Source: an uncultured Bacteroidales bacterium (lineage in GTDB: Bacteria > Bacteroidota > Bacteroidia > Bacteroidales > UBA932). Taken from it: a DNA stretch of 47,627 bases. Below are positions 1,064-11,378 of this stretch, piece after piece. The stretch is taken from contig CALVDI010000012.1 in the NCBI GenBank assembly GCA_944326225.1, positions 1 through 47,627 of the forward strand, written 5' to 3'. The stretch's first letter is position 1, and each line of letters starts with the position of its first letter. The notes beneath the pieces are model-generated. The model had not been told where the DNA came from and ran no database searches. It worked only from the letters and a program-made list of their open reading frames with translations. A program made the translations under genes and the position numbers.

Positions 1064-2496
1064 AGTACCTGCCTTTCAAGGTTCTGCTCGCGGTGTACGA
1101 GCCTTATTTGTATTGAGTCAGACCGGTTTGCGTATCTTCCGGCCAGATGTTCGGCCAGCCTCTCGGCGAAATATACCGAACGGTGCCGTCCGCCGGTGCA
1201 GCCGAAGCAGAACATCAGATCTGTGAATCCGCGCTCCAGATAGTTGTCTATATGCCTGTCCGCCAATGCTGCGGTGTCACGGGCAAAGTCCCCGGTCTCG
1301 GAATAGCCCTGCAGATATTCTATGACGGGGACATCGAGGCCTGTGAGGCTGCGGTACTCGGGCAGCCGTCCGGGATTGGGCAGCCCCCGGCAGTCGAACA
1401 CATAGCCGCCGCCGTTGCCGGAGGAGTCCTCCGGTATGCCGTTTTTATATGAGAAACTGAAAATACGCACCAGCAGCCGTCCGTCCTTGCGCGGCTCTCT
1501 GTGGCTGTAGAGCGGTATCAGCTGGCCTAGCAGCCGGCACAGGCAGGGATATTCGTCAAACGGTGCGGAGAGCAGTTCGCGGAGATTGTCCATCGCATAG
1601 GGTATACTTTCCAGGAAATGAGGTCGGCGCTCATACAGTCCCCTGAAACCGTATGCTCCGAGCACCTGCAGGGTCCTGAACAGGATGAAATGTCTCAGCT
1701 CAGAAAGAAAATTGCGTCTGTTGACAGCCTCGAAGTGCGACTGTGCTTCAAGGTATGCCTCTGTGAGTTCCTGTTTCAGCTCCGGACTGTACCGGGCCCT
1801 GGCCTGCCAGATGAAAGAGGCCAGGTCATAATGTACCGGTCCCATGCGGCCGCCCTGAAAGTCGATGAACCGCAGTTCTCCGTTCTCCGGCACCATGATG
1901 TTGCGGCTTTGGAAATCCCGGTACATGAAATGCCCGCTGTCGCACATCAGCAGCCTGTCACACAGGCGGTTGAAGTCCTCTTCCAGGTCGGTCTCGCAGA
2001 ACTCCACACCGGAAGGCTTCAAGAAGCAGTATTTGAAATAATTGAGGTCGAACATTATCGAGGTGCGGTCGAAATACTGTACCGGAAAGCATTTGGAGAA
2101 GTCCATCCCCGAGGCTCCGGCGTACTGGAATGCCGGCAGGGTCTCCACCGCCCTGCGCAGAAGCCTCCGTTCATCCCCGGAGTATTCTCCGCTTCTCCGG
2201 CCTGCCGCCACTGCGTCGAAAAGGGTAGTGCTGCCCAGATCCTCCTGCAGATAAGTCATGCCGTCGTCACTCACGGCCAGTATTCCGGGCACCGGCAGTC
2301 CCAGTCTTCCGAAGTGCCGGGCCATATACAGAAATGCGGCATTTTCCTCCTGACTGGTGCCTATGGCGGCAATGCAGCTGCCTCCGCTCCATGTAATCCT
2401 GAAATACTGCCGGTTGCCTCCTGAGGACGGCAGCGGACAGATATCGTACTCTGAGGATCCTGAATATCTCTCGAAAAGTGATTTGAATCTTTCCAT
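1060..2496 (-). CDS. amgK: AmgK-like sugar kinase fused to RapZ C-terminal domain
   Basis: A 478-residue two-domain protein. Residues 1-330 are an aminoglycoside-phosphotransferase fold: catalytic loop YRDFQSRN (192-199, Asp194) and metal-binding IDFQ (211-214, Asp212), as in AmgK kinases that phosphorylate MurNAc/GlcNAc at the anomeric position. Residues 341-478 match the C-terminal domain of RapZ, with FDCRGLPNP (367-375) and GCTGGRHRSV (432-441). The RapZ N-terminal P-loop kinase domain is absent. In enterobacteria the RapZ C-terminal domain senses glucosamine-6-phosphate and binds the sRNA GlmZ. The fusion, coupled to a MurU-like gene by a 4-base overlap, suggests amino-sugar sensing tied to cell-wall recycling; this is inference. 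A -7 box at 2504-2511 ends 7 bases before the ATG. Confidence 0.8.
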   Translation of the reverse strand: MERFKSLFERYSGSSEYDICPLPSSGGNRQYFRITWSGGSCIAAIGTSQEENAAFLYMARHFGRLGLPVPGILAVSDDGMTYLQEDLGSTTLFDAVAAGRRSGEYSGDERRLLRRAVETLPAFQYAGASGMDFSKCFPVQYFDRTSIMFDLNYFKYCFLKPSGVEFCETDLEEDFNRLCDRLLMCDSGHFMYRDFQSRNIMVPENGELRFIDFQGGRMGPVHYDLASFIWQARARYSPELKQELTEAYLEAQSHFEAVNRRNFLSELRHFILFRTLQVLGAYGFRGLYERRPHFLESIPYAMDNLRELLSAPFDEYPCLCRLLGQLIPLYSHREPRKDGRLLVRIFSFSYKNGIPEDSSGNGGGYVFDCRGLPNPGRLPEYRSLTGLDVPVIEYLQGYSETGDFARDTAALADRHIDNYLERGFTDLMFCFGCTGGRHRSVYFAERLAEHLAGRYANRSDSIQIRLVHREQNLERQVL

Positions 2497-6355: not shown

Positions 6356-7096
6356 CTACATGTCCTCCATCGGAGTGGGAGCGGTTACTGTGACCGGCTC
6401 TTTCCGGGTGGGGTGGAGGAATGTTATCTGTCTGGCGTGCAGACTGATGCTTCCGTCCGGATTGGAACGCCTGGCACCGTATTTAAGGTCGCCTTTGATC
6501 GGGCATCCTATCGAGGCAAGCTGACAGCGGATCTGATGATGCCGTCCTGTCAGCAGCTGCACTTCCACGAGAAAATAGCTTTTGGTGGGTCTGAGCAGGC
6601 GGTAGCGCAGCAGGGCCTCCTTGGCTCCGGGCTGCGGCTGCGGATGGCTGTAGGACTTGTTCTGCTTCTCGTTGCGGGTGAGCCAGGAACGGATCTCGCC
6701 CTGTGGCGGTTTCGGAGACTTTTCCACCAGTGCCCAGTATATTTTGCCAGCGTCGCCTTCCCTGAAGGCACCCGAGAGCCTTTCCAGGGCCTTTGATGTC
6801 TTGGCCAGGATAACGGCTCCGCTTACGGGACGGTCCAGGCGGTGGGGTACTCCCATGAAGACTCTGCCGGGCTTGTGGTCCCGGGCGGCGATGAATGCCT
6901 TCAACTTCTCGGGCAGGGGCTCGTCTCCGGTCTTGTCTCCCTGGGTTATCTCCCCGGCGCGCTTGTTCAGGACCAGTACATGGTTGTCCTCGTAGAGGAT
7001 GCGAGAGGCTATGTCATCATATTCCTCTTGGGAGAGTGTCCTGTATGCCGTATCAGTACTGCTCGCTGTCATTGGGGAAATCACAGGATTTGACAT
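6356..7096 (-). CDS. RluA-family RNA pseudouridine synthase
   Basis: A 246-residue protein of the RluA family without an S4 domain. The catalytic motif HRLDRPVSG starts at residue 85, with Asp88 as the nucleophile. Downstream motifs [11 protein letters not shown] and GDLKYG, followed by [11 protein letters not shown], complete the family pattern. It isomerises uridine to pseudouridine in rRNA or tRNA; which position cannot be told from sequence. The start at 7096 overlaps the end of panB by 44 bases; an internal ATG at 7072 would shorten the overlap and remove 8 residues that are not conserved in the family. It is probably co-transcribed with panB. Confidence 0.88.
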
Positions 7097-7868
7097 CCTC
7101 TATATACTGGCGGAATGCATTGAGACTGACATCGTGCAGGTCTGCGTAGCGGCGCAGGAACCTGGGAGAGAACTTGGTGGTCAGCCCGAGCATGTCGTGC
7201 ATCACGAGCACCTGTCCGTCCACGTATTTGCCCGCGCCTATGCCTATTACCGGTATCTTCAGGGTCTCTGCCACTTTCTTGCCCAGGGCCGCCGGTATCT
7301 TTTCCAGTACCAGCGCGAAGCAGCCTGCGTCCTCCAGGGCGATCGCGTCCTGCAGCAGTTTGGCCGCCTCGGCCTCTTCCTTGGCCCTTACAGCGTATGT
7401 GCCGAACTTGTGAATCGACTGGGGAGTCAGTCCCAGATGTCCCATGACGGGAATGCCGGAGGAGAGGATGCGCTCGACTGACTCGAGGATCTCCATGCCT
7501 CCCTCTATCTTCACCGCATCTGCCTCCGACTCCTTCATGATGCGTATCGCGTTGCTGACGGCCATCTTGGAGTTGCCCTGATATGAGCCGAAGGGCATAT
7601 CCACCACTACCAGAGGATTTTTCACTGCCCTCATGACACTCTGGGCGTGGTAGATCATCTGGTCTATGGTGATGGGAAGGGTGGTCTCGTGGCCGGCCAT
7701 CACGTTGGCGGCCGAGTCTCCTACGAGGATGATGTCGATGCCGGCCTCGTCCAGGATTCGGGCCGAAGTGTAGTCGTATGCGGTGAGCATGGCGATCTTC
7801 TCGCCGCTCTGCTTCATCTCCAATAGTCTGTGGGTCGTCATGACCCTTACATTGCCTTCTGTGGACAT
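7053..7868 (-). CDS. panB: 3-methyl-2-oxobutanoate hydroxymethyltransferase
   Basis: 271 residues, the usual length for PanB. It transfers a hydroxymethyl group from 5,10-methylene-THF to 2-oxoisovalerate, giving ketopantoate, the first step of pantothenate and CoA synthesis; it acts in the cytosol. The family motifs are clear: [19 protein letters not shown] near the N-terminus, [17 protein letters not shown] with the metal-binding Asp, [16 protein letters not shown], and [19 protein letters not shown] chose the ATG at 7868 ([15 protein letters not shown]) because the longer frame adds 34 non-conserved residues. No other pantothenate gene is nearby. Confidence 0.95.
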
Positions 7869-7937
7869 GTCTTTGCCTGTTTTGTGGTTTGGTATTTGGA
7901 CCTGCAAAGGAAGACAATAATTATCACAATTCCAATA

Positions 7938-7950
7938 TGACATGTTGTCA
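7938..7950. promoter_or_regulatory. Short inverted repeat between panB and dnaK
   Basis: TGACA-TGT-TGTCA is a perfect 5-3-5 palindrome in the divergent panB-dnaK intergenic region. It could be an operator; there is no direct support. It is not the CIRCE heat-shock element. Confidence 0.25.
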
Positions 7951-7991
7951 GTTCCGCTCATTTGGCACAATCTTCGTTGAGGAGAGTTACG

Positions 7992-8012
7992 GCCGCTTGA
8001 AAATCAGGCGGC
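7992..8012 (+). promoter_or_regulatory. Hairpin in the dnaK leader
   Basis: GCCGCTTGA-AAA-TCAGGCGGC forms a 9-bp stem (one G-U pair) with a 3-base loop, ending 35 bases before the dnaK ATG. It has no T-tract directly after it, so it is not a plain terminator. It may be an mRNA leader structure or an operator. Confidence 0.4.
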
Positions 8013-8047
8013 GTCAATTGTAGAAAAAAATTAAAAAATATAGAATT

Positions 8048-9979
8048 ATGGGAAAGATTATTGGAATAGACCTTGGAACCACCAACTCCTGCGTAGCAGT
8101 GATGGAAGGTAACGAGCCCGCTGTCATCATCAACAGCGAGGGCAAGAGGACCACTCCTTCGGTAGTGGCATTCACCGACAACGGTGAGAGAAAGATAGGT
8201 GACCCGGCCAAGAGGCAGGCTATCACCAACCCTTACAAGACCATCTTCTCTATCAAGAGATTCATGGGCGAGCCTTATGACAGGGTTCAGAACGAGATAT
8301 CCCGCGTGCCTTATAAGGTAGTGCGCGGTGACAACGGCACTGCACGTGTCGATATCGACGGCCGTCTCTATTCTCCTCAGGAGATATCGGCGATGATTCT
8401 TCAGAAGATGAAGAAGACAGCCGAGGATTATCTCGGACAGGAAGTGACTGAGGCTGTCATCACGGTACCCGCTTACTTCAGCGACTCTCAGAGACAGGCC
8501 ACGAAAGAAGCCGGTGAGATCGCGGGCCTGAAGGTTAAGCGTATCATCAACGAGCCTACCGCAGCCGCGCTGGCCTACGGTATGGACAAGAAGAAGAACG
8601 ATATGAAGGTGGCCGTATACGACCTCGGCGGCGGTACATTCGATATATCGATTCTGGAACTCGGTGACGGCGTGTTCGAGGTTAAGTCCACCAACGGTGA
8701 TACCCACCTCGGCGGCGATGACTTCGACCACAGGATCATCGACTGGATGGCTACTGAGTTCATGAATGACAATCCCGGCGTGGACCTGAGGAAAGACCCC
8801 ATGGCCCTGCAGAGACTGAAAGAGGCAGCCGAGAAAGCCAAGATCGAGCTTTCCAGCCAGACCTCCACGGAGATCAACCTGCCTTATATCATGCCTGTGG
8901 ACGGTGTGCCCAAACACCTGGTAAGGACTCTTACCCGCGCCAAGTTCGAGCAGCTTTGCGATGACCTGATCCAGAGGACTATCGAGCCTTGCCGCAAGGC
9001 AGTCGCCGATGCCGGTCTGAAGGTGTCCGACATAGACGAGGTGCTGCTCGTCGGCGGTTCGACCCGTATCCCCGCCATCCAGCAGATCGTCGAGAAGTTC
9101 TTCGGAAAGGCTCCCAACAAGGGTGTCAACCCCGATGAGGTAGTGGCTGTAGGCGCTGCCATCCAGGGCGGTGTCCTCGCCGGTGACGTGAAGGATGTCC
9201 TCCTGCTGGATGTGACCCCTCTGTCCCTGGGTATCGAGACCCTCGGCGGTGTGATGACCAAGCTGATCGAGGCCAACACCACCATACCTACCCGTAAGTC
9301 GGAGGTATTCTCCACCGCATCGGACAACCAGCCTTCGGTAGAGATTCACGTCCTCCAGGGCGAGCGTTCAATGGCCCGTGACAACAAGACCATCGGCCGC
9401 TTCCACCTCGACGGCATCACTCCCGCTCCCCGTGGTATCCCTCAGATCGAGGTTACCTTCGATATCGATGCCAACGGTATCCTGAACGTGTCCGCAAAGG
9501 ACAAGGCTACCGGCAAGGAGCAGAAGATACGTATCGAGGCTTCTTCAGGACTGAGCGAGGACGAGATCAAGAGGATGCGTGACGAGGCCAAGGCCAACGA
9601 GGCAGCCGACAAGGCCGAGCGTGAGAAGATTGACAAGATCAACGGTGCCGATGCCCTCATCTTCCAGAGCGAGAAGAACCTCAAGGAGTACGGCGACAAG
9701 ATACCCGCTGACAAGAAGGGTGCCATCGAGAATGCTCTCGGTCAGCTCAAGGAGGCTCACAAGTCGCAGAACATCTCCGACATCGACCGTGCCACCGAGG
9801 CTCTGAACAACGCATGGCACGCCGCTTCCGAGGATATGGCCCGCGCCGCACAGGCAGGTCCTTCCGCCGGTGCAGGCAGTCAGACCGGCAGCCAGACAAG
9901 CGGCGGATCATCCTCCAACAGCGGCTCCAACTCCGGTGACGACAACGTCAAGGACGTGGACTACGAGGAGGTCAAATAA
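8048..9979 (+). CDS. dnaK: Chaperone DnaK (Hsp70)
   Basis: 643 residues, full length. The ATPase domain (about 1-385) begins with [15 protein letters not shown] and contains the phosphate-binding segments [12 protein letters not shown] and [14 protein letters not shown]. The linker and substrate-binding domain follow ([18 protein letters not shown]), then a helical lid and a Gly/Ser-rich tail ending DVDYEEVK. It binds unfolded peptides in an ATP cycle driven by DnaJ and GrpE, which are encoded together 6 kb downstream rather than in this transcription unit. Codon use is strongly biased to GAG, AAG and CTC/CTG, as expected of a highly expressed gene. A terminator follows at 10026. I see no clear promoter consensus upstream, which may mean heat-shock control by another signal. 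Confidence 0.98.
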
Positions 9980-10129: not shown

Positions 10130-10403
10130 TGGTGTCATGGACAGAGAATTTAGAATCATTGCAATTTTAATCATTCGCTGGTTGTCTTAATCCTTGTTCT
10201 ATTGGAATATGGTCTGTGACTTATTACCTGCATCTATGTTGTGCCGGTAAACTGCCTTAAGGATTGAGGAGGAAGATTGTGCCGGTTTTTGGATGAAATT
10301 ACCAAAACTGTAAAAAAATAACTGTTTGTTAGGAAGTTAGGGGTAGGAGTATGGGAAATAATTCATAGCTTTGTCTCCAGTTAATTTAAAAAGTGTAGGA
10401 GAT

Positions 10404-11378
10404 ATGAAGTATTTGGACCCTAAGGCCGATCTGACTTTCAAGAAAGTGTTCGGCGAGCATCAGGATTTGGTAATCAGCTTTCTCAATGCGCTGTTGCCTT
10501 TTGAAAACGAAGAGGAGGAGATTAAGAGTGTGGAGTATCTGAGCCCCGAACTGGTACCTCTCAATCCTTTGAAAAAGGACAGCATAGTGGATGTGCGTTG
10601 CAAGGACGGTCTCGGCCGTCAGTTTATCGTGGAGATGCAGATGATGTGGACTCCGGAGTATAAGCAGCGCGTGCTGTTCAATGCATCGAAGGCTTATGTG
10701 AGCCAGCTTGGCAAGAGCCGTCATTATGAGCTTCTTCAGCCTGTGTATTCATTGAATCTGGTGAATGATGTATTCTGCGACGGAGATGAATATTACCACG
10801 ATTACCGTATAGTTGAAGTTGCTGAGACAAAGGAGGTGATAGAGGGACTTCGTTTTATCTTTATCGAACTGCCAAAGTTCACACCGAAGAGTTACGGTGA
10901 CAAGCGGATGCAGGTACTGTGGCTGCGTTATCTTACGGAGATAGACGAGGATACCCGTGAGGTGCCGAAGGAATTGCTGGACAATCCGGAGATAGGGAAG
11001 GCGCTTGAGGAGGTGGAGGAGTCAGCGTTTACAGAGGAGGAACTGCTCGGTTACGATCATTTTTGGGATATGCTGGGCGCATCAAGGCTTCTTATGATAG
11101 GCTCTATCCGTAGGGGGCTGAAAGAGGGAATGGAGAAAGGAATGGAGAAAGGAATGGAGAAGGGAATGGAGAAGGGAATGGAGAAGGGTTTGAAAGAAGG
11201 TTTGGAGAAAGGGATTAAAGAAGGAATGAAGAATGGGTTGGAGAAAGGCCGCGCGGAAGGTATGCGCGAGATGATAGCCAGGATGCGGGAAAGAGGACAG
11301 TCCGTATCCCGGATAAGTGAGTTGACAGGAATTCCTGAAAAAGAGATAGACGATATGACTCGGGATAAAGAGAAGTAA
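10404..11378 (+). CDS. Rpn-family PD-(D/E)XK nuclease (RpnL-like)
   Basis: A 324-residue protein of the Rpn/transposase_31-like PD-(D/E)XK family. It opens with MKYLDPKADLTFKKVFGEH, typical of the Bacteroidota members, and carries the nuclease core DSIVDVRC then FIVEMQMMW (Asp, then ExQ). The C-terminal third holds a run of 4-residue repeats (EKGM type, residues about 238-290) encoded by a 12-bp tandem repeat, then a helical end with RISELTGIPEKEID. In Escherichia coli, Rpn proteins are toxic nucleases in anti-phage toxin-antitoxin systems in which the C-terminal part is also translated alone as an inhibitor. I chose the ATG at 10404; a TTG 11 codons earlier is possible. It is convergent with nadD, with 7 bases between the stops. 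Confidence 0.88.
   Translation: MKYLDPKADLTFKKVFGEHQDLVISFLNALLPFENEEEEIKSVEYLSPELVPLNPLKKDSIVDVRCKDGLGRQFIVEMQMMWTPEYKQRVLFNASKAYVSQLGKSRHYELLQPVYSLNLVNDVFCDGDEYYHDYRIVEVAETKEVIEGLRFIFIELPKFTPKSYGDKRMQVLWLRYLTEIDEDTREVPKELLDNPEIGKALEEVEESAFTEEELLGYDHFWDMLGASRLLMIGSIRRGLKEGMEKGMEKGMEKGMEKGMEKGLKEGLEKGIKEGMKNGLEKGRAEGMREMIARMRERGQSVSRISELTGIPEKEIDDMTRDKEK
11094..11378 (+). CDS. Possible internal RpnS-like antitoxin within the Rpn gene
   Basis: An in-frame ATG at 11094 (residue 231 of the full protein) would give a 94-residue product made of the repeat helix and C-terminal domain. AAGG lies 6 bases upstream, a plausible ribosome site. Another in-frame ATG is at 11070. In the described Rpn systems the separately translated C-terminal part blocks the full-length toxin. 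That this happens here is inference from architecture only. Confidence 0.35.
   Translation: MIGSIRRGLKEGMEKGMEKGMEKGMEKGMEKGLKEGLEKGIKEGMKNGLEKGRAEGMREMIARMRERGQSVSRISELTGIPEKEIDDMTRDKEK
11115..11270 (+). repeat. 12-bp tandem repeat array in the Rpn gene
   Basis: Thirteen 12-base units in register with codons. Five central units (11127-11186) are nearly identical (GGAATGGAGAAA or GGAATGGAGAAG), coding for GMEK; the flanking units have diverged (GLKE, GLEK, GIKE, GMKN, GRAE). Copy-number change would keep the reading frame. Confidence 0.9.

Follow-up and report, generated by a model that had tools for sequence, protein, structure and literature searches.

A candidate sigma-54 promoter with a helically phased upstream repeat before dnaK and other chaperone genes of Bacteroidia

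Features between panB and dnaK

The window analyzed here is a stretch of 47,627 nucleotides from an uncultured Bacteroidales bacterium, in which dnaK occupies positions 8048 to 9979 of the forward strand. Its ATG lies at 8048, and translated searches gave full-length matches at 92 to 99% identity in 14 other genomes of the genus. The next gene downstream (10371 to 11378, forward strand) encodes a PD-(D/E)XK family transposase. On the other side and divergent from dnaK is an open frame assigned by Pfam to panB (ketopantoate hydroxymethyltransferase; 7053 to 7970, reverse strand), the true start of which is probably near 7869.

The inverted repeat TGACA-TGT-TGTCA, pointed out in the first-pass annotation, is present at 7938 to 7950 (no strand assigned) and is treated here as a putative activator site (UAS) from its conservation and helical phasing. 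After 11 bp it is followed by a -24 element, TTGGCAC (7962 to 7968, forward strand; recognized from the sequence and from alignments), and by a -12 element, TTCGT (7973 to 7977, forward strand), whose G at 7976 lies 10 bp from the GG of the -24 element. This GG-N10-G geometry is the spacing of sigma-54 promoters. Judged by its sequence, TTGGCAC-N5-TTCGT at 7962 to 7977 is a sigma-54-type -24/-12 box, in which T replaces the usual C after the -12 G; an earlier description of the region as having no clear promoter consensus is thereby corrected. From sigma-54 promoter geometry, transcription on the forward strand is predicted to start at 7988 to 7989, 12 to 13 nt after the -12 G, which would place the palindrome center about 44 bp upstream of the start.

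A 9-bp hairpin, GCCGCTTGA-AAA-TCAGGCGGC (7992 to 8012, forward strand), begins about 4 nt past the predicted start and ends 35 nt before the ATG. The rest of the leader (8013 to 8047, forward strand) is A rich and, in the fold predicted at 37°C, mostly unpaired. The stability previously ascribed to the hairpin was borne out, with segment 7975 to 8060 folding at -16.3 kcal/mol (z score, -2.5) and 2 of 200 shuffled sequences folding as well. The hairpin was kept in 15 of 18 genus members (it was lost in loci L043, L044, and L045), and 18 of its 21 positions were invariant across those 15. Both its stability and this invariance would suit a thermosensor or attenuator of dnaK acting in the RNA, but such a role is most unlikely, given the loss in 3 of 18 genus members and the scarcity of stable leaders in relatives: z scores below -2 were obtained for 3/15 family dnaK, 4/23 family groES, and 1/36 class dnaK leaders. 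Furthermore, the A-rich stretch before the ATG was left unpaired in the predicted 37°C fold, which lacked the structure hiding the ribosome-binding site that marks an RNA thermometer; the scan found no terminator-like site, and the three Rfam matches were weak, none near the gathering score. The hairpin sequence occurred in 24 of 364 loci searched, every one of them a dnaK region of the same genus. The hairpin was rejected as the main element because it is absent beyond the genus and few leaders in relatives are stable. On this distribution it is a side feature outside the conserved module, which may perhaps stabilize the 5' end of the mRNA.

The absence of CIRCE stated in the first-pass annotation also held. 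The best matches to CIRCE in 18 same-genus dnaK regions missed 6 to 9 of 18 bases, and none of the 59 family genomes searched (59/59) gave a match to HrcA; control of dnaK by CIRCE and HrcA was rejected on these two grounds.

Conservation and helical phasing of the repeat and the box

Chance would supply about 0.16 exact inverted repeats of 5 bp with a 3-nt loop in a region of this size (1/1024 per position), so the palindrome alone is unremarkable and constitutes weak evidence. It is significant because both arms are conserved among same-genus dnaK regions, being invariant in 18 of the 18 regions aligned (the window and 17 others). In that alignment, 14 of 16 box positions (7961 to 7976) were invariant, as were 0 of 8 in part of the spacer (7953 to 7960) and 0 of 15 at 7977 to 7991.

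Across family regions covering 25 genera, with repeat-to-box gaps of 8 to 26 allowed, the repeat and the -24 box were found with no more than 3 mismatches of 16 in 26 of 27 dnaK regions and 23 of 25 groES regions. Before groES of the window's own genome, TGACATTTTGGCA is followed after 11 bp by GTGGCACTTAATTTG, 87 bp upstream of the groES start. Of 99 family genomes, 57 contained the strict pattern TGACANNNTGTCAN{8,26}TGGCA, with 90 matches in all, compared with 8 for a reversed-pattern control. For the 30 strict-pattern loci returned, the next gene, called from open frames read by eye, was dnaK in 13, groES in 10, and another gene in 6, and 1 locus ran to the contig end. At two loci (L058 and L059, about 1500 to 1550), the palindrome before groES is flanked by TGGCA on both sides, the far-side copy overlapping the start of a divergent lipoprotein-like gene.

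The 99% level of 600 shuffled sequences was exceeded by 29 of 36 dnaK regions from same-class genomes of other families and by 6 of 24 from other classes; only gaps of 10 to 12 and 21 to 23 were considered in this comparison. A narrower pattern matched only 7 of 148 phylum genomes, all of the same class. Of the two features whose conservation in relatives the first-pass annotation had set as a test, the palindrome is kept throughout the genus (18/18) and in most dnaK regions compared from the family and class, but the hairpin is not kept beyond the genus.

The position of the repeat was compared across 78 promoters (32 class dnaK, 22 family dnaK, and 24 family groES) with the box position fixed; a box score of at least 7 of 8 was required, which removed 4/36, 3/25, and 1/25 promoters, respectively, and 1/35 in the hold-out set described below. 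GG was present in all 78 boxes, a count that partly reflects the score cut, which itself weighs GG. Class dnaK boxes aligned on GG read tTGGCAtAa..aTTGA. The C after the -12 G was usually missing, with GC found in 0/32 class dnaK, 3/22 family dnaK, and 11/24 family groES promoters, which counts against a sigma-54 promoter.

Repeats scoring at least 9/10 amounted to 61 sites in the 78 promoters, at 10 to 12, 21 to 23, 42 to 45, 53 to 54, 64 to 65, 75, and 85 to 86 bp before the box, with a best period of 10.75 bp (R = 0.94). The 28 distal sites of this quality alone gave a period of 10.70 (R = 0.91, reached by 0 of 2,000 random sets), and the 104 sites scoring 8/10 gave a period of 10.60 (R = 0.79). 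Repeats with shuffled arms served as the control. A 9/10 site at a gap below 70 occurred in 57 of 78 promoters (59 shuffled-arm repeats: mean, 0.2; maximum, 2), and an 8/10 repeat at gaps of 0 to 33 occurred in 59 of 78 (control mean, 1.4; maximum, 12). Gaps of 34 to 67, where a repeat was present in 15/32, 7/24, and 2/22 promoters, were unusable as a control region because the repeats there are the distal phased sites.

A hold-out set consisted of 35 previously unused dnaK regions, which share their family, and for the most part their genera, with the family set. The box was found in 34 of 35, and 30 of those 34 had an 8/10 repeat at a gap below 70. The 37 sites of 9/10 had a mean cosine of 0.84 to the earlier phase (0 of 20,000 random sets), with a mean cosine of 0.62 for the distal sites (n = 14); in one genus, a second site at 45 bp, beside a phased site, was about 2 bp off phase. 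Smaller hold-outs, with a box score cut of 6.5, were class groES (n = 7, P = 0.026) and other-class dnaK (n = 13, P = 0.034, with random gaps drawn from 16 to 129, yet four of the observed gaps at 11 to 12). No phasing was seen for second sites in named loci (n = 4, P = 0.41). Since the promoters are related by descent, the phasing P values are overstated and serve as a guide.

Good repeats keep to one face of the helix relative to the box. A factor bound at the repeat must therefore meet the polymerase on one DNA face; an activator accounts for this more readily than does a -35 hexamer or a repressor acting by simple blockage. By eye, the hexamer and spacing also permit a sigma-70-type promoter, TTGTCA-N17-CAATCT, whose -35 element would be the right palindrome arm. 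This reading is barely credible: a sigma-70 consensus scan of 7860 to 8060 found none, an alignment of 68 promoters showed only recurrent A-richness and no TAnnTTTG downstream of the box, and the shifts of the repeat by whole turns relative to the box exclude a -35 role. It is also highly unlikely that the repeat is the operator of a stress-released repressor blocking the sigma-54 promoter. In the family the repeat is near enough to the promoter that a bound repressor could overlap the polymerase, but in relatives its distance from the box reaches about 86 bp with the phase retained, as suits an activator, and sigma-54 promoters require an activator regardless.

Chaperone genes sharing the element and a candidate activator

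A scan of all prokaryotes, with one genome per species, for TGACANNNTGTCAN{9,13}TTGGCAC yielded at least 115 stretches. Among the 115 listed, the next gene (BLAST and Pfam) encoded a chaperone in 85, namely, dnaK in 33, groES in 37, htpG in 8, hsp20 in 4, clpB in 2, and grpE in 1. According to titles and taxonomy, 97 of those listed were from Bacteroidota, mainly Bacteroidales with some Flavobacteriaceae and Cytophagales, and 18 were labeled otherwise. Of these listed 18, a chaperone gene followed the element in only one (L173, titled Clostridium sp.). The GroEL encoded there shares 72% identity with that of the window's genome, and the DNA of the locus is 72 to 76% identical to the eight Bacteroidota loci compared, so the contig is probably mislabeled or misbinned. 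At another locus (L234, match at 1670 to 1699, reverse strand), the element is followed by a META-domain gene and then by groES-groEL, perhaps as one operon. From their distribution, the palindrome and box look like the chaperone switch of Bacteroidia.

The genome of the window encodes a full RpoN, with AID, CBD, and DBD (Pfam) and an intact RpoN box, and a PF04552 match was found in 18 of 19 genomes of the genus. In the remaining genus member (G014, rated 99% complete), neither RpoN (PF04552) nor a true dnaK match was found. Because its groES (locus L068) retains the element, both absences probably reflect an assembly gap. A second PF04552 match occurs in the window's own genome alone among the 19; this 309-amino-acid protein (L093:3735-4664, reverse strand; C4:12752-13168) carries, by Pfam, the sigma-54 DNA-binding domain only and neither the activator-interacting nor the core-binding domain.

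The same genome contained four strong matches (E below 1e-60) to PF00158 (Sigma54_activat), the domain of sigma-54 enhancer-binding proteins (EBPs), and four weaker ones. Of the four strong EBPs, only the one at L089:1775-2974 (reverse strand; PF00158 and HTH_8 by Pfam) combines a GAFTGA-type loop, here GSFTGA, with a Fis helix-turn-helix; its Walker A motif is GESGVGKE, and it has no receiver domain. Of the remaining three, one lacks a helix-turn-helix and two carry GAFTDA. The latter two are receiver-domain EBPs (L090:4035-5357, reverse strand, and L091:4167-5657, forward strand), and with GAFTDA in place of GAFTGA, it is questionable whether either acts on sigma-54.

Orthologues of the receiver-less EBP (E ≤ 1e-90) were found in 36/36 same-class and 78/111 other-class genomes, although this cutoff splits one genus (present in G123, absent from G144). 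Gene order was compared in 20 chosen neighborhoods (11 same-class and 9 other-class), with miaB labeled by eye. In the same class, miaB-EBP-lptE was found in 11 of 11 genomes, 9 of which had groES-groEL next; in the 9 neighborhoods from other classes, lptE followed the EBP gene in 7 and groES in none. In the window's own genome, the EBP gene is followed by lptE, by a gene that we take to encode a TPR protein, and by secG, and this cluster (contig C48) lies apart from groES (C19). In the 8-kb stretches examined at 38 named groES loci, lptE or secG was present in only 2.

The last two observations, and the occurrence of the orthologue in genomes whose dnaK lacks the element, count against this EBP. 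On its domains and its gene order in relatives, the receiver-less EBP is nevertheless rather likely to be the activator at the repeat. Alternatively, the sigma-54 promoter could be correctly identified while a different protein, either a receiver-domain EBP or some unrelated regulator, occupies the repeat and an EBP acts from solution. The genome does offer four strong EBP matches, and outside the class no link was found between the presence of the EBP and that of the element, with several EBP-containing genomes lacking the element before dnaK. This alternative is nevertheless unlikely, in view of the GAFTDA loops or missing helix-turn-helix of the other three EBPs and the identity of the receiver-less EBP with the one adjoining groESL in relatives.

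Proposed chaperone control and known systems

Conservation, promoter geometry, sharing among chaperone genes, phasing, the RpoN and EBP genes, and the EBP-groESL order in relatives were all computed. We consider it probable that the region before dnaK comprises a sigma-54 (RpoN) promoter and an activator site and belongs to an EBP-driven chaperone regulon. In this model, sigma-54 RNA polymerase would sit on TTGGCAC-N5-TTCGT (7962 to 7977), and a dimeric activator, most likely the receiver-less AAA+ EBP, would bind 7938 to 7950 through its Fis-type helix-turn-helix. The bound EBP would assemble, contact sigma-54 through its GSFTGA loop, and open the promoter with ATP under protein-folding stress, and transcription would begin near 7988, just upstream of the hairpin. 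Binding of the repeat by this EBP, activation through that binding, and heat or misfolded protein as the signal are inferred.

The same arrangement would drive groESL, htpG, clpB, hsp20, and grpE in relatives, and its occurrence at their chaperone genes suggests that dnaK is part of a class-wide chaperone regulon. The EBP itself lacks a sensor domain, so it is probably held inactive in unstressed cells by a partner, which may be a chaperone, much as PspA restrains PspF. We give an even chance to the broader proposal that the cytosolic chaperone regulon of Bacteroidia is under sigma-54 and one sensor-less, groESL-linked activator, with an enhancer that moved in whole turns; during evolution it would have shifted from about eight turns to one turn off the promoter, on the same helix face throughout. 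The suggestion in the first-pass annotation that an unknown element may control dnaK needs dividing: the palindrome does belong to a conserved element other than CIRCE, but the promoter is recognizable as sigma-54 type, so that an unrecognized element was rightly suspected and, as far as the sequences indicate, half of it was seen.

Sigma-54 control of chaperone genes is already known in kind. In Flavobacterium psychrophilum, according to the accessible text of PMC9723704, mapped transcription starts with sigma-54 motifs place groESL, lon, dnaK, grpE-dnaJ, and htpG in one coexpression cluster and clpB in another. Induction is reported on blood agar and, in part, under osmotic stress and in plasma and freshwater; "heat shock" is absent from that text, and the induction conditions given there are not heat, a point against the model. 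Its sigma factors are described as a primary factor, sigma-54, and seven ECF factors, with distinct activators possibly involved (PMC9723704). The SM4 promoters resemble those described here in having -24/-12 elements before dnaK, groESL, grpE-dnaJ, htpG, and clpB, and locus tags place EBP-lptE just before groES, as in same-class relatives (PMC9723704). Unlike the present analysis, the account in that text includes no upstream palindrome, phasing, or activator assignment, and the main text contains no instance of "palindrom," "inverted repeat," or "TGTCA" (PMC9723704).

A PSSM-based study, in its accessible text, predicts sigma-54 control of GroEL, GroES, IbpA, GrpE, DnaJ, and DnaK, enriched in Bacteroidota, and cites grpE and groES of B. 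thetaiotaomicron as sigma-54 dependent (PMC12316311). Unlike the analysis presented here, it covers the promoter only, and its main text has no instance of "palindrom" (PMC12316311). The accessible text of PMC3162934 mentions neither Bacteroides nor dnaK nor groE, and that of PMC10434189 has no bearing on these points. The repeat, its phasing, and its activator were not described in the open-access literature searched; as far as that literature goes, the repeat, its phase-locked placement down to one turn, and the activator assignment are new.

The same literature names no regulator that switches on chaperone genes in Bacteroidia, a main class of gut bacteria and here without HrcA. The present result offers a candidate binding site, a promoter type, a regulon, and one candidate gene.

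Among characterized systems, HrcA/CIRCE likewise places a palindrome before dnaK and groESL, but its sequence differs from that of the palindrome in the window, and the family genomes searched have no HrcA. PspF of Escherichia coli resembles the candidate EBP in joining an AAA+ domain to a helix-turn-helix with no receiver domain; its targets are different, and the candidate EBP has no known restraining partner. At lonD of Myxococcus xanthus, a heat-inducible gene is controlled by HsfA, an NtrC-type activator, which resembles the model proposed here, although HsfA is a receiver-domain regulator in another phylum and is not known to govern a dnaK/groESL regulon.

The closest parallel in architecture lies in the sigma-54 enhancers of NtrC and NifA, at which a dyad-symmetric upstream site is bound by an AAA+ activator with a Fis-type helix-turn-helix and function depends on the face of the helix. 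Those sites usually lie about 80 to 150 bp upstream and act through a DNA loop, whereas here a single turn separates the repeat from the promoter in most family members. The site in the window, about 44 bp before the predicted start, falls short of that classical distance, and several class relatives, with gaps of 53 to 86, come near it. Movement of a phase-locked site provides natural evidence on how a sigma-54 activator might reach its promoter at short range. If the broader proposal of an enhancer moving in whole turns is true, the dnaK element would be a natural sigma-54 enhancer free of looping and a type of heat-shock control of its own.
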